Below the pieces are notes generated by a model that had not been told where the DNA came from, did not search any database, and was given only the letters and a program-made list of their open reading frames with translations. This document shows, piece after piece, positions 2,884 through 22,215 of a stretch of DNA of 43,013 bases. Source of the stretch: Oceanicaulis sp. (lineage in GTDB: Bacteria; Pseudomonadota; Alphaproteobacteria; Caulobacterales; Maricaulaceae); the NCBI GenBank assembly GCA_022565365.1, contig JAIUMW010000004.1, positions 1 to 43,013 of the forward strand. Direction: 5' to 3'. The position numbers were made by a program, and so were the translations under genes. Every line of letters starts with the position of its first letter. Positions within the stretch are counted from its first letter, which is position 1.

Positions 2884-4640
2884 GCGAGACCGCCCATATG
2901 CGCGATAGCTGGGGCGAAGCGCGCCTGGCCGCCGCGCTGCTGGCGGTGGATCCGGGGCTGGCCGGCGCCGTGCTGAAAGCCCGCGCCGGCCCGGCGCGCG
3001 ACGCCTGGCTTGAGACCTTGCGCCATCTGGTAAATGAAGCCGCGCCCTGGCGGCGCATTCCGGCGGGCGTAGGCGATGAGGCGCTGCTGGGCGGCGTCGA
3101 TTTGGCCGCGACGCTGAAAGCCGGACGCGCCGTACAGCGCGCAGGCCTGCTGGATGAAATCAGGGACGGCGTGGGCGTGCTGGCCATGGCCGAGCGCGCC
3201 GAGACCGGGCTGGCGGCGCGCCTGGCGATGGCGCTGGACGCCGCCCCGGCGCCGATGATCATCGCGCTGGATGAAAGCGCCGACCCGGATGAAGGCGCGC
3301 CCGGGGCGCTCAGCGAACGCCTCGCCTTTCATCTCGATCTGTCGGCCGTGTCCTTGAGCGATCTCAACACCGCCCCGCCCGGCCATGGCCGCGAATCCAT
3401 CGCCATGGCGCGGGTGCGTCTGCCTCATATCGTGAGCGCCGGCGCCGAGCGCGCCCTGCCCCAGACGGCGGCGGCGCTGGGCATCACCTCTCTGCGGCCG
3501 CCCTTGCTGGCCCTGCGCGCCGCGCGCGCCGCCGCCGCGCTCGATGACCTTGACGAGATTGGCGAGGAACAGGCCGCGCTGGCCGCCCGGCTGGTGCTGG
3601 GACCGCGCGCTCTGCACCTGCCCCATGAAGACGAGGCGCAGGACGACCAGCCGCCCGAAAGCGAACCCGACGCCCCGCCCCGGGACGACGAGGCGAACAA
3701 CGACAATAACGAGCCCGATGAGCAGCCCGACGACCAGCCCGACACCGCCCAGACGCCTGACGAGCTGACCGAGATCACCACCGAGGCCGCGCAGGCCGCC
3801 ATCCCCGCCGGCCTGCTGGCGCGGCTGGAGGCGGGCGCGTCCAACAGCCGGGCGAGCAGCGCGGGCCAGTCCGGCGCGACGCGCAAGAGCGGTCAGCGCG
3901 GACGCCCGGCAGGCACGCGGCGCGGCGATCCGGGCGAGGGCCGCAAGCTGGACGTGCTGGCCACCTTGCGCGCAGCGGCGCCCTGGGGCCGGGTACGGCG
4001 GCGCGGCTGGGACCGGCTGAAATCCGGTCCGGCGCTGGAAGTGCGCCGCGAGGATTTCCGCATCAAACACTTCAAGCAGAAAGCCGAGACGCTCACCATT
4101 TTCGTGGTCGACGCCTCCGGCTCGCTGGCGCTCAATCGCCTGTCCGAGGCCAAGGGCGCGGTGGAGCTGATGCTGGCCGAATCCTATGTGCGGCGCGATC
4201 AGGTCGCGCTCATCGCGTTTCGCGGGACCACCGCCGAGACGCTGCTCCCGCCCACCCGCTCGCTCACCCGCGCCAAGAAGAGCCTGGCCGCCCTGCCCGG
4301 CGGCGGCGGCACACCGCTGGCCACCGCCATCGAAGCGGCTGAAGCGCTCGCCCATGGCGCCGCCCGGCAAGGGCGCACCGTGACGCTGGTCTTCCTTACC
4401 GACGGCGCGGCCAACGTGACCCGCGCCGGAACCGGCGGGCGCGATATCGCCCAGGCCGAAGCCCACGACGCCGCCCGGCGCCTGCGCGCTGCGGGCCATG
4501 CGGCGATCATGGTCGACGTCTCCCGGCGCGGCGCCGAGACTGCCCGCTCCGTCGCGCAGAACATGGCCGCACGCTATGTGCGCCTGCCCGCCGGCAATCC
4601 CGCCGCGCTGGCTGATATTGCCCGGACGGCGGCCGCATGA
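2880..4640 (+). CDS. bchD: Magnesium chelatase subunit D (GTG start overlapping bchI stop)
   Basis: Degenerate AAA domain, acidic/proline-rich linker (EDEAQDDQPPESEPD...), C-terminal VWA domain with MIDAS DASGSLALNRLSEAKGAVELML. Confidence 0.96.
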   Translation: MSETAHMRDSWGEARLAAALLAVDPGLAGAVLKARAGPARDAWLETLRHLVNEAAPWRRIPAGVGDEALLGGVDLAATLKAGRAVQRAGLLDEIRDGVGVLAMAERAETGLAARLAMALDAAPAPMIIALDESADPDEGAPGALSERLAFHLDLSAVSLSDLNTAPPGHGRESIAMARVRLPHIVSAGAERALPQTAAALGITSLRPPLLALRAARAAAALDDLDEIGEEQAALAARLVLGPRALHLPHEDEAQDDQPPESEPDAPPRDDEANNDNNEPDEQPDDQPDTAQTPDELTEITTEAAQAAIPAGLLARLEAGASNSRASSAGQSGATRKSGQRGRPAGTRRGDPGEGRKLDVLATLRAAAPWGRVRRRGWDRLKSGPALEVRREDFRIKHFKQKAETLTIFVVDASGSLALNRLSEAKGAVELMLAESYVRRDQVALIAFRGTTAETLLPPTRSLTRAKKSLAALPGGGGTPLATAIEAAEALAHGAARQGRTVTLVFLTDGAANVTRAGTGGRDIAQAEAHDAARRLRAAGHAAIMVDVSRRGAETARSVAQNMAARYVRLPAGNPAALADIARTAAA

Positions 4641-5539
4641 CGATCGCGCGCATCCCGGACAATTGGCCCCATCGCGACGCCAGCCAGATAGTATCGGCGG
4701 GCGGGGTCAGCTGGCATGTCCAGCGCTTTGGCGCCGGCCCGGTCCTGCTGCTCATTCATGGCACCGGCGCGTCAACCCATTCCTTCGATCAGCTGGCGCG
4801 CGCATTGAGCGGCGAGTTCGAGATAATCATGGCCGATCTGCCCGGCCACGGCTTCACCGGTCGGATGGATGCGCCCGAGCTGCCTCTGGTGGCCCAGGCG
4901 CTGGGCGCGCTGATGGCGCGGCTCGGCGTTGAACCCGCTCTCGCAGCGGGCCATTCGGCTGGCGCGGCGGTGGCGCTGCGCATGGTGCTCGATGGAGCCA
5001 TCAGGCCGCAGGCGCTGATCGGCCTCGCCCCGGCGCTGCAGCCCTATGGCGGCGCGGCGGACGGCATCGCGTCCAAAATGGCGCGCCTCGCCCTGCTCAA
5101 TCCGCTGACCCCGCGCCTGTTTTCGATGCGCGCCAATATGGCGAGCGTCGCCCGCCTGATCGCCAAAACCGGCTCCCGCCTCGATGAAGAGGGCGTGGCG
5201 CTCTATCAGCAGCTCCTGAAACAGCCCGGCCACGTGGCCGGCGCGCTGCGCCTGATGGCGCACTGGAAGCTGCGGCCCCTGCTGGCCGACCTACCCCGCG
5301 TGACGACACCTGCGCCCATGGTGATTGGCGAGAATGACCGCGCCAGGCCCCCCGACGATTCCTGGGCCGCGGCCCGGCGCATACCGGGCTGCCAGCAGAT
5401 CCGGCTTCCCGGACTTGGCCATCTTGCCCATGAAGAAGATCCCGGCCAGACGGCCGATATCATCCGCCAGGCTGCGCAGGCAGCAGGGCTTGATGGCGCC
5501 GCCAGCGCACGCACGCACCGCATGGCCGGAGGACACTGA
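4637..5539 (+). CDS. bchO: Alpha/beta hydrolase BchO (magnesium chelatase accessory protein)
   Basis: LLLIHGTGASTHSF, AAGHSAGAAVALRM nucleophile elbow; position directly after bchD with ATGA overlap. Confidence 0.93.
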   Translation: MTIARIPDNWPHRDASQIVSAGGVSWHVQRFGAGPVLLLIHGTGASTHSFDQLARALSGEFEIIMADLPGHGFTGRMDAPELPLVAQALGALMARLGVEPALAAGHSAGAAVALRMVLDGAIRPQALIGLAPALQPYGGAADGIASKMARLALLNPLTPRLFSMRANMASVARLIAKTGSRLDEEGVALYQQLLKQPGHVAGALRLMAHWKLRPLLADLPRVTTPAPMVIGENDRARPPDDSWAAARRIPGCQQIRLPGLGHLAHEEDPGQTADIIRQAAQAAGLDGAASARTHRMAGGH

Positions 5540-6843
5540 TGCCCGCCCTGACCCTGCCCGCCAATCACCCACGCCGCGCCGAGCTGAGCGAAGAGGTTCA
5601 CGCCCGTCCGCCCCAGCCGCTCACCGCGCCGCTGAGCGCCTCCTACATGGTGCTCTATACCGGCCCGGAGGAACAGGCGGCTGACCGGGCGGCCATCGCC
5701 GCCCTCGCCGCCCGCTTCAGCGCGGCGGAGCCATCCGAAGGCGCCACCCATTACAGCGCCCATCTGGGCCCCGTGCGGGTGATCTGGGAGCGCCATACCG
5801 AGTTCACCCGCTACACTTTCATCCGCCAGAGCGGCGATGAGCGCGCCCCGTTCGACAATCCGCCCATCGCCGAGGCGCCCGCCGACTGGCTCGCCAGCCT
5901 GCCCGGCCAGGTGATTTTCGCCGCCCATGTCCTGATGCTCAACACGCCCGACGAGGGCGCGGCGGTGGACGAGACGGCCAAGCGCCTGTTCGGCGACGCT
6001 GAGCTGGTCGGGGCGCGTATCGCATCGGGCGGCGCGGTGGCGCTGACCAGCTTCCGCAGCCATGGCGACGGATTCAACCGCTATCTCATCCGCAATCGCA
6101 GCCTGACGCCGATTCAGGCCGGACGCCTGATGCGCGGGCTTCTGGAGATGGACACCTACCGGATGATGGCGCTGCTGGGCCTGCCGGCGGCGCGCGATCT
6201 GGGGCGGATCATGACCGCACGCGAACAGGAACTGGCGGGCATCACCCATGAGATGGCCGACGGCATCAACTCTGATGAAAGCGGGTTGCTGGACCGGATC
6301 ACGCGGCTGCAGGCCGATATCGAACGGCGCCACTCCCAGCACCGCTACCGCTTTGGCGCCTCTGAGGCTTATTACGGCATTGTGCAGGCCCGCATCGAGG
6401 AACTGCGCGAGCAGCGCCTGGAGGGGTTGCAGACCTTCGGCGAGTTCGTCGAACGCCGCCTGGCCCCGGCCATGAGCACGGTGGAGGCGGTATCTGATCG
6501 TCTCGAATCCATGTCCGAGCATCTGGCGCGCGTGACGCAGTTGCTGTCCACGCGCGTGGCGCTGACCCAGGAACAGCAAAGCCGCCTGCGGCTCGCCGCC
6601 ATGGCCCGCCGCGCCAAGCTCCAGCTGCGCCTGCAGCTGACCATGGAAGGGCTCTCAATTGCGGCCATCACCTATTATGTCGTCGGCCTGATCGCCTATT
6701 TCGCCAAAGGCAGCGAAGTGCTCGGCATGCCGCTGGACGCCGCGATCATCACGGCCGCGGCCGTTCCTGTCGTCGCGCTGGCGCTGATTTTCGGCCTGCG
6801 CCGCGTGCGCGGCCGGCTCGGCAAGTCGGCGCAGGAGGACTGA
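5539..6843 (+). CDS. DUF3422 family membrane-anchored protein
   Basis: N-terminal NHPRRAELSEEVHARPPQPLTAP and C-terminal pair of hydrophobic segments are recognisable DUF3422 features; TGATG overlap with bchO. Confidence 0.8.
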   Translation: MPALTLPANHPRRAELSEEVHARPPQPLTAPLSASYMVLYTGPEEQAADRAAIAALAARFSAAEPSEGATHYSAHLGPVRVIWERHTEFTRYTFIRQSGDERAPFDNPPIAEAPADWLASLPGQVIFAAHVLMLNTPDEGAAVDETAKRLFGDAELVGARIASGGAVALTSFRSHGDGFNRYLIRNRSLTPIQAGRLMRGLLEMDTYRMMALLGLPAARDLGRIMTAREQELAGITHEMADGINSDESGLLDRITRLQADIERRHSQHRYRFGASEAYYGIVQARIEELREQRLEGLQTFGEFVERRLAPAMSTVEAVSDRLESMSEHLARVTQLLSTRVALTQEQQSRLRLAAMARRAKLQLRLQLTMEGLSIAAITYYVVGLIAYFAKGSEVLGMPLDAAIITAAAVPVVALALIFGLRRVRGRLGKSAQED

Positions 6844-6847
6844 TCCC

Positions 6848-8371
6848 ATGCCCAGAGATTCCGAAACATTGACCGACGGCGAGGATCGCAGACCCCACGC
6901 GGTGGTCATCGGCGCCGGGTTTGGCGGGCTGGCCGCTGCGGTCCGGCTGGGCGCGCGCGGCTATCGCGTGACAATTCTGGAAAAGCTCGATGCGCCGGGC
7001 GGGCGCGCCTATGTGTTCCGCGAGGGCGGCTACGCCTTTGACGCCGGCCCCACCATCATCACCGCGCCCTTCCTGTTCGAGGAGCTGTGGTCGCTGGCCG
7101 GGCGCAAGCTGGAAGATGATGTGGAGCTGAGGGAGATCTCGCCCTTTTACGGTATCCGCTTTGATGACGGGTCGGTGTTCCAGTGCTCGCGCGACCCTGA
7201 AGCCATGCGCGCCGAAGTCGCCAAATTCAACCCGTCCGACGTGGCGGGCTATGAGCGCTTCCTGAAAAAAAGCGAAGAGATTTTCCGCGTCGGCTTCGAA
7301 CAGCTCGGCCATGTGCCGTTCAGCACCATCGCCGACATGGCGCGCATTGCGCCCGACCTGATCCGCCTGTCAGGGCATCGCTCGGTGTACGCCCTGGTCT
7401 CGCAATATGTGAAAGATCCCAAAGTGCGCACCGCGCTGAGCTTCCATCCGCTGCTGATTGGCGGCAACCCGTTCTCGGCCAGCGCGGTCTACTGCCTGAT
7501 CTCCTATCTGGAGCGCAAATGGGGCGTCCACTTCGCCATGGGCGGCACGGGCGAGCTGGTGAAAGGCCTGGTCAATCTGGTGCGCGGCCAGGGCGGCGAT
7601 GTGCGCTGCGGGGCTGAAGTGGAGCAGATCGAGGTGGATGAGGGCAGGGTCACCGGCGTGCGCCTCAACGGTGGCGAGGTGCTGCCCGCCGACATCGTCA
7701 TCTCCAACGCCGAGACGGGGCACACCTACAAACACCTTCTGTCGGGCGCCAAACGCAAGCGCTGGACCGACAAAAAGGTGGAGAGCGCGCGCTACTCCAT
7801 GGGCCTGTTCGTCTGGTATTTCGGGGTGCGCCGGACCTATCCGGATGTGGACCACCACACCATCGTGCTGGGTCCACGCTATCGCGGGCTTCTGGACGAT
7901 ATCTTCCACAGGAAACATCTGGCCGACGATTTCAGCCTCTATCTCCACCGCCCCACCGCCACCGATCCCTCGCTGGCTCCGGAAGGGTGCGAAGCCTTCT
8001 ACGTGCTCTCGCCCGTGCCCAATCTGGACGGCGACACCGACTGGGAAACGAAGGCCGAACCCTATCGCCAGGCCATCGAGAAGCGGCTGGAGGAAACCCT
8101 TCTGCCCGGCCTCAAGGATGCGGTGGAAGTGTCCATGGTGATGACGCCGCTGGATTTCCGCGACCGGCTAAACTCGCTGCGCGGCGCCGCCTTCGGGCTC
8201 GAACCGGTGCTGACCCAGAGCGCCTGGTTCCGCCAGCACAATAAAAGCGAAGACATAGACGGCCTGTATCTGGTCGGCGCAGGGACGCATCCCGGCGCCG
8301 GCGTGCCCGGAGTGTTGTCTTCGGCCCGTGTCCTCGACACAGTTGTTCCCGATGCGAGGACCCATGCCTGA
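6848..8371 (+). CDS. crtI: Phytoene desaturase
   Basis: VVIGAGFGGLAAAVRLGARGYRVTILEKLDAPGGRAYVFREGGYAFDAGPT; C-terminal YLVGAGTHPGAGVPGVLSSARV. Confidence 0.96.
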   Translation: MPRDSETLTDGEDRRPHAVVIGAGFGGLAAAVRLGARGYRVTILEKLDAPGGRAYVFREGGYAFDAGPTIITAPFLFEELWSLAGRKLEDDVELREISPFYGIRFDDGSVFQCSRDPEAMRAEVAKFNPSDVAGYERFLKKSEEIFRVGFEQLGHVPFSTIADMARIAPDLIRLSGHRSVYALVSQYVKDPKVRTALSFHPLLIGGNPFSASAVYCLISYLERKWGVHFAMGGTGELVKGLVNLVRGQGGDVRCGAEVEQIEVDEGRVTGVRLNGGEVLPADIVISNAETGHTYKHLLSGAKRKRWTDKKVESARYSMGLFVWYFGVRRTYPDVDHHTIVLGPRYRGLLDDIFHRKHLADDFSLYLHRPTATDPSLAPEGCEAFYVLSPVPNLDGDTDWETKAEPYRQAIEKRLEETLLPGLKDAVEVSMVMTPLDFRDRLNSLRGAAFGLEPVLTQSAWFRQHNKSEDIDGLYLVGAGTHPGAGVPGVLSSARVLDTVVPDARTHA

Positions 8372-9425
8372 ACGTTTCGCCAGCCCCGCCGATCTCGACG
8401 CCTGCCGCCGGGCCATCCGCGGCGGATCAAAAAGCTTCTTCGCCGCCTCGCTGCTGCTGCCCGAAGAGGTGCGCGACGATGCCTACGCCCTCTACGGCTT
8501 CTGCCGGCGCGCCGATGACGCGGTGGATGACGGGTTTGACCCGGCCAGGGCCTGCGCCGATCTGAGCTGGCGCCTGGATGAGATTTACGCCGGCCGTCCG
8601 GGCGATGAGCCGGTGGACCGCGCCTTCGCCGATGTGGTGCGCAAGCGCGCCATCCCCAAATCCCTCCCCGCCGCCCTCATTGAAGGCTTCGCCTGGGACG
8701 CCGAGGGCCTGCGCTTTGAAACGATCTCGCAGCTGCGCGCCTATGGTGCGCGCGTGGCGGGATCAGTGGGCGCCATGATGACCCTGGTCATGGGCGTGCG
8801 CTCGCCCGCCGCCCTGTCGCGCGCCTGCGATCTGGGCGTGGCCATGCAGCTGACCAATATCGCCCGCGATGTGGGCGAGGACGCCCGCGCCGGCCGGCTT
8901 TACCTGCCGCTGGAATGGATGAGGGAGGCGGAACTTGAGCCCGCCGCCTGGATCGCCGCGCCGGAATTCGGGCCGCAGATCGCCAGCGTCATCCAGCGCG
9001 TGCTCGAAGAGGCTGACCGCCTCTATGACCGCGCCCGTCCGGGCATTGCGCTTCTGCCCATGGGCTGCCGCCCCGCCATCCACGCGGCTGCGCGCATCTA
9101 TAGAGAGATCGGCGCCGAGGCTGAACGCGCAGGCTGGGATACGGTCAACCGCCGCGTCGTGACGTCCACGGGCCGCAAACTCTCTCTCGCCGCGGCCGGA
9201 TTGCTGGATGCGGCCCTGACGCGCGGCGATGACGAGGCCGCCCCGCTCGCCGAGACCCGCTTTCTCGTCTCTGCAATTCCCCCGGTTCCGCCCGCGCCGC
9301 CGGCGCCGCCCTGGTGGCGGGTGGACGAGCACTGGGGCCGGATGATCGAAATCCTGCTGGCGCTGGAGCTGCGCGAGCAGGAATCGACCCGCCTGCCTGA
9401 TATGAGACGCGAACGGCAGGGCTGA
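8364..9425 (+). CDS. crtB: Phytoene synthase (start at the ATG overlapping the crtI stop)
   Basis: DDAYALYGFCRRADDAVDD and AMQLTNIARDVGEDARAGRLYLP squalene/phytoene synthase signatures; MPERFASPAD start overlaps crtI end. Confidence 0.95.
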   Translation: MPERFASPADLDACRRAIRGGSKSFFAASLLLPEEVRDDAYALYGFCRRADDAVDDGFDPARACADLSWRLDEIYAGRPGDEPVDRAFADVVRKRAIPKSLPAALIEGFAWDAEGLRFETISQLRAYGARVAGSVGAMMTLVMGVRSPAALSRACDLGVAMQLTNIARDVGEDARAGRLYLPLEWMREAELEPAAWIAAPEFGPQIASVIQRVLEEADRLYDRARPGIALLPMGCRPAIHAAARIYREIGAEAERAGWDTVNRRVVTSTGRKLSLAAAGLLDAALTRGDDEAAPLAETRFLVSAIPPVPPAPPAPPWWRVDEHWGRMIEILLALELREQESTRLPDMRRERQG

Positions 9426-9583
9426 TGCGCGCCTATCTCCCCCTCCTCTTCGAGATCCTGATCGCCGGCGCGGTCATCGGATGGGGCGTGCGCGAGCTGA
9501 TCCTTCTCCATCGCGACGAGAAAAAGAGCGAGCGTGAGGACACAGGCGCGGGCAAGGACGAGACATCCGAAGGCACACCCTGA
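9425..9583 (+). CDS. Single-TM micro-ORF A (52 aa: MRAYLPLLFEILIAGAVIGWGVRELILLHRDEKKSEREDTGAGKDETSEGTP)
   Basis: TGATG overlap with crtB stop; predicted TM helix followed by LHRDxKK...RED; related to the micro-ORF at 10121-10243. Not called in the supplied ORF track (below length threshold). Confidence 0.75.
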   Translation: MRAYLPLLFEILIAGAVIGWGVRELILLHRDEKKSEREDTGAGKDETSEGTP

Positions 9584-9656
9584 GCCGGGATCATTGTCCC
9601 GGACGCGCGCGGGCCTACGTGTTAGCCCGGGCCGACGCGCGAAGGATGCACCGACC

Positions 9657-10124
9657 ATGATCGACGCCCCTCTCTGGACGATTCTGCCTTTTATCGGTGT
9701 GGTGTTCCTCGCCTCCATGACCGGCGCCATCTTCCGCCCGGGCCAGTGGTATGACGAGCTTCGCAAGCCGTCCTGGACGCCGCCCGGCTTTGTGTTCCCG
9801 CTGGTCTGGGGCGTGCTCTATGTGGCCATGGCATACTCGGCCTGGCGCATCTGGGATCTGGAGGGCTTCCATCCCGCCCTGGCGGTGTGGGGTCTGCAGC
9901 TGGCGCTCAATGCGCTGTGGTCAGCGGTGTTCTTCGGGATGCGCAAGCCAGCGCTGGCGCTGGCCGAGGTTGCGCTCCTCTGGCTGGCGGTGGCGGCGAA
10001 CCTCTACGTCTTCGCCCAGATCGACGCCATCGCCGGCTGGCTGCTCGCGCCCTATCTGGTCTGGGTGACCATCGCCGCGACGCTCAATCTGCAAATCGTG
10101 CGGCTGAACGGGAAGGCGGCATGA
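9657..10124 (+). CDS. tspO: TspO/MBR family tryptophan-rich sensory protein
   Basis: GAIFRPGQWYDELRKPSWTPPGFVFPLVWGVLYVAMAYSAWRIWD...LNALWSAVFFGMRKPALAL is a classic TspO signature; located between crtB and crtC as in Rhodobacter. Confidence 0.95.
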   Translation: MIDAPLWTILPFIGVVFLASMTGAIFRPGQWYDELRKPSWTPPGFVFPLVWGVLYVAMAYSAWRIWDLEGFHPALAVWGLQLALNALWSAVFFGMRKPALALAEVALLWLAVAANLYVFAQIDAIAGWLLAPYLVWVTIAATLNLQIVRLNGKAA

Positions 10125-10243
10125 ATAATTACATCTTCCTTGTCGAGATGGTGCTGGTGTTCGGCTTGGTCCTGGGCTTTGCGGTCTGGGAGCTGGTCAA
10201 GCTTCACCGCGACAAGAAGCGTCAGGACCGGCGCGAGGACTGA
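10121..10243 (+). CDS. Single-TM micro-ORF B (40 aa: MNNYIFLVEMVLVFGLVLGFAVWELVKLHRDKKRQDRRED)
   Basis: ATGA overlap with tspO stop; TM plus ELVKLHRDKKRQDRRED tail similar to micro-ORF A. Appears only as the tail of a longer spurious ORF (9887-10243) in the track. Confidence 0.75.
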   Translation: MNNYIFLVEMVLVFGLVLGFAVWELVKLHRDKKRQDRRED

Positions 10244-10259: not shown

Positions 10260-11315
10260 TCAGCGCCAGTAGGCGCGCGGCATGCGGAAGGGCAGCATCA
10301 GCTTCACCACCGGCGAGGAAAACCGCGTCAGGTCGAGGCTTTCATGCATGGACACGCGGCGTTCGCCCATGAGCTCGGTTTCAATGAGGGAGCGCGAATA
10401 GAAGGGCGTATCCTCCAGCGTCTCCATCACCGTCGCCGCCCCGAGCGAGCGCGCGTCGCGGTCCACCCGCCAGCCCGTCCTTGGCAGGGCCTGCACCGGC
10501 GGCGGCTCAAAGCGTTCAGCCCGGCCCGCCCCGTCTATGCGCAAGGCCAGCGATCGCCCGCCGCCATCCGCCCAGACTGAATCGTAGAGAATCGCCGCGC
10601 CATCCGGCATCGCCGTGCGCGCCCAGTTCCAGGAGTGGAAACCGGCTTCCAGCGGCTCGGCGCCGGCATTCATGTCCACATATCCATCGCCAGAGAAGCG
10701 GACATCCGGCGCGTCGAACTCAGCCTCCACCCGCGCGCGCGGCCAGACCGGGCGCCAGACATGGCGGCCGTCTGCGTCCAGCGTGAAGGTCTCGCTCTGC
10801 TCCAGTTCCGGCCGGATCACCACGCGTCCGCGCATGGCTTTAGGCAAGGGCGCGCCATGTTCGGCGATGTCATAGATCAGCGCCCCGTCTTCAAACCGCA
10901 CCCGGCTGGGGCCAAGGGTGAGGCTGTCTGCGCTCGCCTCCACCGCGTCCCGGCGGCGTTCGGTCATCGCCCAGCGCCGCACGCCCGGACCATAAAGACA
11001 GACATTGAGGGCGCAGTGATTGAGCGGATCACCCCGCCCCGACCACGCATAGTAAGGAGAGAAGACGCTGCCCGTCAGCGCGATCAGGACGAGGGCGTAG
11101 CGTCCGTCTTCGCTGACCGCGTCGGCATAGACCCAGCGATACCCGCCGGGCGCCGGGACCGTGTCGAAGCCAAATCGGCCAAGATCGAGCGCGCCGCGAT
11201 CCGGCCCGACAGCATGGCCGTCGGCACGCCCGGCCCCGGATGCACCCCGCCCCCCGCCAGATACAGGCCCGGCAGGCGGGTGCGCGCCCCCGGCCGCTGA
11301 AACGCCGCCCGCCAT
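10260..11315 (-). CDS. crtC: Carotenoid 1,2-hydratase (hydroxyneurosporene synthase); 5' end unresolved, conserved region starts about position 11180
   Basis: GGYRWVYADAVSEDGRYALVLIALTGSVFSPYYAWSGRGDPLNHCALNVCLYG is typical CrtC. The nearest in-frame ATG is at 11315, deep inside crtD. Confidence 0.85.
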   Translation of the reverse strand: MAGGVSAAGGAHPPAGPVSGGGRGASGAGRADGHAVGPDRGALDLGRFGFDTVPAPGGYRWVYADAVSEDGRYALVLIALTGSVFSPYYAWSGRGDPLNHCALNVCLYGPGVRRWAMTERRRDAVEASADSLTLGPSRVRFEDGALIYDIAEHGAPLPKAMRGRVVIRPELEQSETFTLDADGRHVWRPVWPRARVEAEFDAPDVRFSGDGYVDMNAGAEPLEAGFHSWNWARTAMPDGAAILYDSVWADGGGRSLALRIDGAGRAERFEPPPVQALPRTGWRVDRDARSLGAATVMETLEDTPFYSRSLIETELMGERRVSMHESLDLTRFSSPVVKLMLPFRMPRAYWR

Positions 11316-12652
11316 CCGTGCAGGGCGCGCCCGTACAGCGCCCCGCCCGATCCCGGAAAGCGCGCCGCGAACCCGTCCGGCGCCGTCGCCGTCACGGCGT
11401 TGATCGAGAGGGTCAGGCCGCAAGCCTTTAGCCGGTCTGTCGTTCGCGCGAGCCATGTATCGATCTCCTCAGGCGCATACGCGCGCTCATCGCCATCGGC
11501 GGGCGCGTTGAGCAGGATCAGGAAACGCTCCGGCCCGTCGGGGACGGACCCCGCGCCGCGATCCTGGGCGCAGACATAGATCGTCGGCGCATCGGGCATA
11601 CGGCGCGCGTCAAACAGGGCGCGGAACTCGGCGGGGTAATCGCCGGAAAAGAACACGTTATGGCGCTCCAGATCAAAGCCCGACGCCTGACCCGTCGCGG
11701 TCCAGACCAAAGCCGACAGCGCACGTGGACCGGCAGGCGGCGGTGGCGCACTGGCCGCTGCGCTGCCCAGAAGACCGGACCTCAGCGCATCGGGATCGGC
11801 ATTGGCCAGCACGGCGCGGGCGCGCAGGATTTCACCGGTGGATAGGCGCACGCCCGCAGCGCGGCCGCCCTCCACGACAATCTCCTCAACGCTGTCGCCG
11901 TAGCGGATGTCAGCGCCCAGCGACCGGGCGAGCCCGGCCATGGCGTTTGCGAGGCGCGTCATGCCCCCCTCGACAAACCACACGCCCTGCTGCTCCAGCT
12001 CGGCGATCATCAGGAGGGTGGCGGGCGCTTCGAACGGGGATGCGCCGCAATAGGTGGCGTAGCGGCCAAACAGCTGGCGCAGGCGCGGATCGGGAAAATA
12101 CTCGCCCAGCACATCCCACAGCGATGCGAAGGGACGCATGGCTGTCAGCCCCGCCGGATTGCGCATGGCGATGCGCGCGACCAGACCCGCCACGCCGGGG
12201 CGCGACGCTTTCAGGAAGCTCGGCTCCAGCGCCGCGAACAGCCGCCGCCCGTCGCGCAAAAAGCGCTCAAACGCGCGCGCCTGCACCGCGCCGGAGAACC
12301 GGCCCACCTCGTCAATTGTATGCGCCGGATCGGCGTGCAGATCAAAATGACCCGACCCGTCCCAGGCATGGCGGGCGAGCCGGTCAGCGGGTGTCAGGCT
12401 GACATGGTCATTGAGACTGGCGCCGGCATCAGCGAACAGCTCTTCAAACGCGCCGCGCATGGTCAGAACCGTCGGCCCGGCATCCACCGCCGCGCCGCCC
12501 ACAGGCAGGGTGCGCATCTTGCCGCCGGGCGATTCGGCCCGTTCGATCAGCACGACACGCTCACCTTGCGCCGCCAGATCGATGGCGGCGCTAAGTCCGC
12601 CCATCCCTGCACCCACAATCACCACGGGGTCGCCGCCGCGCGCCGGGCTCAT
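11084..12652 (-). CDS. crtD: Hydroxyneurosporene/methoxyneurosporene desaturase
   Basis: VVIVGAGMGGLSAAIDLAAQGERVVLIERAESPGGKMRTL and GLYLAGGGVHPGPGVPTAMLSGRIAARSIL; adjacent to crtC; start ATG at 12652 (MSPARGGDPV). Confidence 0.92.
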   Translation of the reverse strand: MSPARGGDPVVIVGAGMGGLSAAIDLAAQGERVVLIERAESPGGKMRTLPVGGAAVDAGPTVLTMRGAFEELFADAGASLNDHVSLTPADRLARHAWDGSGHFDLHADPAHTIDEVGRFSGAVQARAFERFLRDGRRLFAALEPSFLKASRPGVAGLVARIAMRNPAGLTAMRPFASLWDVLGEYFPDPRLRQLFGRYATYCGASPFEAPATLLMIAELEQQGVWFVEGGMTRLANAMAGLARSLGADIRYGDSVEEIVVEGGRAAGVRLSTGEILRARAVLANADPDALRSGLLGSAAASAPPPPAGPRALSALVWTATGQASGFDLERHNVFFSGDYPAEFRALFDARRMPDAPTIYVCAQDRGAGSVPDGPERFLILLNAPADGDERAYAPEEIDTWLARTTDRLKACGLTLSINAVTATAPDGFAARFPGSGGALYGRALHGWRAAFQRPGARTRLPGLYLAGGGVHPGPGVPTAMLSGRIAARSILADLASTRSRRPAGIAGSMPTRSAKTDATPSS

Positions 12653-21282: not shown

Positions 21283-22215
21283 ATGATGACAACCTATCAA
21301 AACATCTTCACCCAGGTTCAGGTCCGCGGCCCTGTCGAGCAGGGTGTTCACCTGCCGGCCGGCGACGAACCGCGCTATGGCGGGGGCTTCTTCAGCCACC
21401 TCCTCGGCCGGATCGGCAACGCCCAGATCGGTCCGATCTATCTCGGCTTCACCGGTGTCGCCTCGCTTCTGTGCGGCTTCATCGCGATCGAGATTATCGG
21501 CCTGAACATGCTGGCCTCGGTGAACTGGGACCCGCTGGCCTTCGGCCGCGAGTTCTTCTGGCTGACCCTGGATCCTCCGGGGCCTGAATACGGCTTCCAG
21601 CCCTTCGTCCCTCTCAATGAGGGCGGGTGGTACATATTGGCCGGCTTCTTCCTGACCGCCTCGATCCTGCTGTGGGGGGTGCGCACATACCGGCGCGCGA
21701 TCCAGCTGGGCCTGGGCACCCATGTGGCCTGGGCGTTCGCCTCGGCGATCTGGCTCTACCTGGTTCTGGGCTTTATCCGGCCCATGCTGATGGGGGATTG
21801 GTCCCAGGCGGTGCCATTCGGCATTTTCAGCCACCTCGACTGGACCAATAACTTCTCCCTGATCTACGGGAACCTGTTCTACAACCCGTTCCACATGCTC
21901 TCGATCGCCTTCCTGTACGGCTCAGCCCTGCTGTTCGCCATGCACGGCGCGACGATCCTGGCGGTGGGCCGCTTTGGCGGCGATCGCGAGATCGAACAGA
22001 TCAGCGATCGTGGCACCGCCACCGAGCGGGCGGCGCTGTTCTGGCGCTGGACCATGGGCTTCAACGCGACGATGGAATCCATCCACCGTTGGGCCTGGTG
22101 GTTCGCCGTTCTGACCACCCTGACGGGCGGCATCGGCATCCTGATCACGGGCACCGTTGTCGACAACTGGTTCATCTGGGCCAGCGAGAACGGCATCGCG
22201 CGGCCGCTCGACTAA
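21283..22215 (+). CDS. pufM: Photosynthetic reaction centre M subunit
   Basis: [111 protein letters not shown]. Confidence 0.98.

Follow-up and report, generated by a model that had tools for sequence, protein, structure and literature searches.

A photosynthesis gene cluster of Oceanicaulis sp. holds two very short reading frames on either side of tspO, and they raise the questions of whether they are genes and, if so, what their products might do. The window (the whole stretch of DNA analysed, 43,013 nucleotides) is a photosynthesis gene cluster in which bchI, bchO, bchC/X/Y/Z and pufL/M were confirmed by profile; it thus carries a type II reaction centre gene, pufM (21286-22200). On the plus strand, bchI (magnesium chelatase subunit I; 1876-2883; TIGR02030 above cut-off) is near the start of a presumed bchIDO-crtIB-A-tspO-B operon. 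Farther along this strand are bchO (4637-5539; TIGR03056 above cut-off), crtI (phytoene desaturase-type, same operon; 6848-8371; assigned by synteny), crtB (phytoene synthase; 8328-9425; PF00494 E = 5.2e-74), whose true start is probably slightly downstream of 8328, and tspO (9657-10124; PF03073 E = 6.5e-44). Between bchO and crtI lies a 434-aa ORF (5539-6843), probably DUF3422-like, whose homologues occupy the equivalent position in Acetobacteraceae, Parvularculaceae, and other loci.

Micro-ORF A (9425-9583, plus strand) would encode a single-helix membrane protein of 52 aa and micro-ORF B (10121-10243, plus strand) one of 40 aa. As originally described, both are coupled to the gene before them: the ATG of A shares one base with the crtB stop (TGATG), and that of B overlaps the tspO stop by four bases (ATGA). 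Convergent with B on the minus strand lies crtC (10260-11456; assigned by synteny with crtC in 80 named genomes), which as called has an over-long N-terminus. The end of B and the crtC stop are separated by 16 bp.

Micro-ORFs A and B as genes

Forty open codons do not on their own argue for coding here: of the 644 plus-strand ATGs in the window, 375 are followed by a frame of that length or more. The case for A and B comes from conservation instead. Both recur at the same places in genomes of the genus, B-type homologues are found class-wide, and synonymous change exceeds non-synonymous change: pooled within-group pairs of the family give a pN of 0.166 and a pS of 0.453 (pN/pS 0.37), with base differences of 743, 482, and 1436 at the three codon positions. 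These pairs are not statistically independent, and overlap with crtC confounds the values for the Brevundimonas group. Where no long crtC overlap exists (e.g., f2g20, Bradyrhizobium, and Erythrobacter), dN/dS is 0.04-0.34; the values within the window's own genus are higher and noisier (0.06-0.63 for A and 0.27-0.66 for B). Purifying selection on homologues, which had been proposed as a check, was therefore borne out, and on these comparative grounds A and B are confirmed as real, coding genes.

The two proteins are also related to each other. Aligned without gaps from Met1, they share 16 of 39 residues (41%), with 27/39 positive, and score 85, compared with a mean of 26 and a maximum of 64 for shuffled sequences (residues permuted separately within the N-terminus, helix, and tail; n = 5000, none of which reached 85). 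A-type and B-type families align at the profile level with an hhalign probability of 97. The family profile scores B at E = 4e-18 and A at E = 1e-8; A has R23 in place of the tryptophan but keeps E10, E24, and L25. In the remaining genomes of the genus with an inspected crt cluster, crtB and tspO are separated by an A-type ORF of 39-52 aa; in other species its end often falls within the start codon of tspO, unlike that of the window's A. A B-type ORF starts at or near the tspO stop in most of the genus genomes inspected; two (G002 and G003) have an additional copy after B, and three (G001, G012, and G013) carry A alone. The A-type was seen in this genus only: in ten tspO-containing loci from other lineages, no such ORF was present upstream of tspO. 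This absence, together with the profile scores, supports the reading of B as the canonical gene and of A as its genus-level, divergent duplicate, in line with the duplication first proposed. The shared 'LHRD' tail on which that proposal drew is common to A and B of the window's subclade, but does not extend to the A of other species (e.g., LRRMKR). Tandem micro-ORF pairs also occur in Rhodopseudomonas (L225, L234, L262, and L324) and in one f20 genome (L175), and these separate pairs suggest recurrent duplication.

A one-helix membrane family, with an antisense tail in many homologues

A and B almost certainly belong to a single unnamed family of one-helix membrane proteins of 40-65 residues. 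Across 56 members, about five residues precede one hydrophobic helix (mean best 19-residue hydropathy 2.1), which is followed by a basic tail. Lysine and arginine average 0.1 before the helix and 4.8 in the 15 residues after it, and hence the positive-inside rule predicts an N-out/C-in orientation. The family signature is an acidic residue early in the helix and a W/Y-[E/Q]-L helix end: the early position is E or D in 52 of the 56, a glycine lies six residues further in 42, the helix ends in W or Y in 44, and the adjacent residue is E or Q in all 56. Both A and B match the family profile. For micro-ORF B, AlphaFold2 predicts a single helix spanning residues 3-39 (mean pLDDT 90.6).

Many homologues end in a further stretch, [G/R]H[P/A]EG (GHPEG), which we dropped as a peptide motif of the family since it reads as the antisense of the CrtC C-terminal PFRMPR. 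The motif occurs in 38 copies, each of which extends 20 bp or more into the convergent crtC, whereas it is missing from all 71 copies without overlap. In many lineages (L102-L141 and L201-L280), the 3' end of the micro-ORF overlaps crtC by 30-78 bp, giving a tail of GHPEG(Q/E)H. This overlap bears on the possibility that the micro-ORFs are chance intergenic frames, kept open by conserved neighbours or by lying antisense to crtC. GC-rich DNA often has long open frames, and the GHPEG tail is indeed crtC antisense, but the helix region is conserved in loci without crtC overlap and across differing gene contexts, and base change is biased to the third codon position. Conservation thus already makes a chance origin unlikely, and we give it almost no weight.

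No family match in Pfam or NCBIfam was returned for A, B, or any of the 56 members, only scattered sub-threshold ones, and a PDB sequence search with the family profile and a Rhodopseudomonas copy gave nothing credible. The open-access literature that we searched holds no description of such an ORF, which may have been mentioned as an unnamed ORF in subscription literature. An initial guess that RPA1514 is the R. palustris copy was rejected, as papers call that gene hemF. The family is therefore new to Pfam, NCBIfam, the PDB, and the open-access papers searched.

The closest architectural parallel is CcmD of cytochrome c maturation (PF04995/TIGR03141), which is alike in size, single helix, charged cytoplasmic tail, and accessory role in an enzyme operon. 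However, the CcmD profiles touch only one of the 56 members, below threshold (PF04995 E 0.008 and TIGR03141 E 0.003), with no match in the other 55, and the neighbours of the micro-ORF are bchIDO, crtI, crtB, tspO, and crtC rather than a ccmABCDE operon. By analogy, then, the family may be called CcmD-like in architecture without being CcmD. Small oxidase subunits of the CydX/CcoQ type are alike in general architecture but have no operon or sequence relation; two weak profile matches (L198 and L199) are presumably FixQ-like proteins. PufX, protein W, and PufY are short membrane proteins that form part of RC-LH1 and are restricted to purple phototrophs (PMC7806223, PMC11463270). The micro-ORF resembles them in being short, membrane-bound, and phototroph-restricted, but differs in lying in another operon and in having no sequence match to a solved RC-LH1 chain in the PDB. 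By its position, the Novosphingobium capsulatum 'hypothetical protein' WP_062786511.1 is a putative counterpart: a small ORF between bchO and crtC of a plasmid-borne photosynthesis cluster, the family's usual place, as a single copy with no tspO in the interval.

Distribution among phototrophs and place in the pigment operon

A B-type profile found matches in 55 of 398 genomes of the window's order (E <= 0.01), and nearly all of the strong matches inspected follow crtB or bchO and are convergent with crtC. A larger profile traced the family across Alphaproteobacteria. We scored phototrophy by PufM and not by PF07143 ('CrtC'), which misses the window's purple-bacterial CrtC and matches other proteins in 34/398 genomes of the order. 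PufM is present in 25 of 385 alphaproteobacterial genomes, and the micro-ORF (E <= 1e-3) in 21 of these 25 versus 4 of the 360 PufM-negative ones (Fisher p = 7e-27, which overstates the independent evidence because the genomes sampled share descent). Most photosynthetic alphaproteobacteria tested thus carry the family beside pigment genes, and non-photosynthetic ones almost never do.

Among the PufM-negative genomes with a match, G525 is a MAG of 74% completeness whose contig bears bchO-crtI-crtB-ORF-crtC, and the matches in G474 and G582 lie inside long frames without crt neighbours and look spurious. In G529, two tandem weak matches (L193) sit beside Fe-S/Cys-rich (glycolate-oxidase-like) and aldo/keto reductase genes and may be unrelated small membrane proteins. 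Four PufM-positive genomes have no match; in one, uninformatively, the contig ends inside crtB, and the other three have bchO with no ORF after it. Among 124 genomes of Thiocapsa's class, likewise related by descent, the four strongest matches are all PufM-positive, a result that shows specificity rather than full co-occurrence because PufM was tested only in genomes with matches.

The micro-ORF lies near crtC in 49 of 80 named crtC loci, the 49 including Bradyrhizobium, Rhodopseudomonas, Sphingomonas, Erythrobacter, Neoroseomonas, and Methylocystis as well as MAGs of Rubrivivax, Competibacteraceae, and another gammaproteobacterium; the family therefore extends to beta- and gammaproteobacterial phototrophs. 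The other 31 genomes lack it near crtC, but 23 of them have a match at another place (E <= 0.01, with some of the matches weak); in about ten, among them Methylobacterium, Beijerinckiaceae, Brevundimonas, and Bradyrhizobium, this match comes directly after bchO or bchO-crtI-crtB. The best match in some Chromatiales and other gammaproteobacteria is outside the photosynthesis cluster. Such outlying matches in phototrophs are L319, L321, and L323 (Thiorhodococcus, Thiocapsa), L338, L339, and L322; L319 is near feoB and a GGDEF gene, and L322 comes after glutathione peroxidase. The micro-ORF was not found beside crtC in the plasmid-borne clusters of Roseobacter litoralis, Sulfitobacter alexandrii, and Roseinatronobacter or in a Rhodobacteraceae MAG, the four Rhodobacterales clusters examined; hence, it is not indispensable. 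A 'hyp' gene between crtK and crtC in Roseobacter (PMC3176799) was rejected as a family member; in R. litoralis it corresponds to a gene that lies on the same strand as crtC and is annotated as an outer-membrane beta-barrel.

The micro-ORF normally occupies the end of a bchI-bchD-bchO(-crtI-crtB)(-tspO) operon, convergent with crtC. B has this position; A comes one gene sooner, after crtB and before tspO. Among 126 scored matches, the nearest upstream gene is crtB in 72, which bears out the co-occurrence with crtB that had been expected, bchO in 22, and tspO in 19. The micro-ORF is joined to the upstream gene by a start/stop overlap in 36/120 cases and follows it at a gap of 0-30 bp in 52/120 (together 88/120). 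In sphingomonads and Brevundimonas, it follows bchO, the usual upstream partner where crtI/crtB are elsewhere, and in Methylocella/Methylocapsa a PAS-Fis regulator (PpsR-like) is upstream. As copies away from crtC follow bchO or bchO-crtI-crtB, the constant partner is the upstream pigment operon and not crtC; because the upstream gene varies (crtB, bchO, tspO, or the PpsR-like regulator), no single enzyme is an obvious partner. The profile search in alphaproteobacterial clusters that the original prediction had called for thus shows what that prediction, centred on tspO, had missed: A and B are two copies of a phototrophy-linked family of alphaproteobacteria and some beta- and gammaproteobacteria.

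Candidate functions

Distribution points to photosynthesis, operon to pigment synthesis, and architecture to an accessory subunit or anchor. We therefore favour, at a probability of about 45%, a phototroph-cluster family of small accessory or anchor membrane proteins. Tentatively, the mechanism could be as follows: the protein would sit single-pass in the membrane, N-terminus out and basic tail in the cytoplasm, and, by means of this tail and conserved residues of the helix, would keep peripheral pigment enzymes (CrtB, CrtI, BchO) or what they produce at the membrane, so that pigment could be passed to light-harvesting complexes as these form. The gene was duplicated in the genus of the window, which would give two translationally coupled versions around TspO. 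The earlier suggestion of a carotenoid-enzyme partner or membrane anchor stands as a possibility in this broader form: the sphingomonad and Brevundimonas copies, with no crtI/crtB nearby, indicate that the association may be with the whole pigment operon and not with one carotenoid enzyme.

The same distribution and membrane topology would also suit an assembly factor for photosystems or pigment delivery, one whose brief action would be on LH1/RC proteins and not on the enzymes that its operon encodes, and the recurrent tandem copies (in the window's genus, Rhodopseudomonas, and the f20 genome) would suit a hetero-oligomeric helper. Since its operon neighbours are pigment-synthesis enzymes and not puf, puh, or lhaA, we regard this as rather unlikely. 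A structural role in RC-LH1 or the light-harvesting complex, as a small subunit like PufX, protein W, or PufY that might, for example, fill a gap in the LH1 ring, appears improbable. A single-helix protein restricted to phototrophs would suit this role; the Rhodobacterales clusters examined are without the micro-ORF near crtC, and Rhodobacter uses PufX. However, the micro-ORF was not found in puf or puh operons, and no PDB chain matches the profile or the Rhodopseudomonas copy. As Rhodopseudomonas genomes encode the micro-ORF and R. palustris RC-LH1 structures exist (PMC7806223), this lack of a match leaves a structural role disfavoured.

The partnership with TspO first proposed for A and B, in which they would modulate TspO-dependent regulation or porphyrin transport, is weakened, and we put its chances as slim. 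In the window, A and B do flank tspO with stop/start overlaps, and tspO is directly upstream in the 19 loci noted above, one of them (G427) away from crtC. Most homologues, however, follow crtB or bchO with no tspO between, and in the Roseobacter and Sulfitobacter clusters tspO lies near crtC but the micro-ORF is missing; the many loci without tspO disfavour such a role.

Photosynthesis gene clusters are among the best-studied bacterial gene sets, and yet those of most phototrophic alphaproteobacteria tested include a further conserved membrane gene that has no name in the protein libraries searched. We see even odds that the micro-ORF is a conserved part, of real functional importance, of the photosynthetic apparatus of purple bacteria or of the supply of pigment to it, one diversified in the window's genus into two or three co-translated, possibly hetero-oligomeric, partners; its small size, and its apparent absence from the Rhodobacter relatives that serve as models, would have kept it from notice. 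The micro-ORF could underlie ways in which other phototrophs depart from the Rhodobacter model in making pigments or assembling photosystems, and it offers a concrete, easily deleted target in tractable strains.
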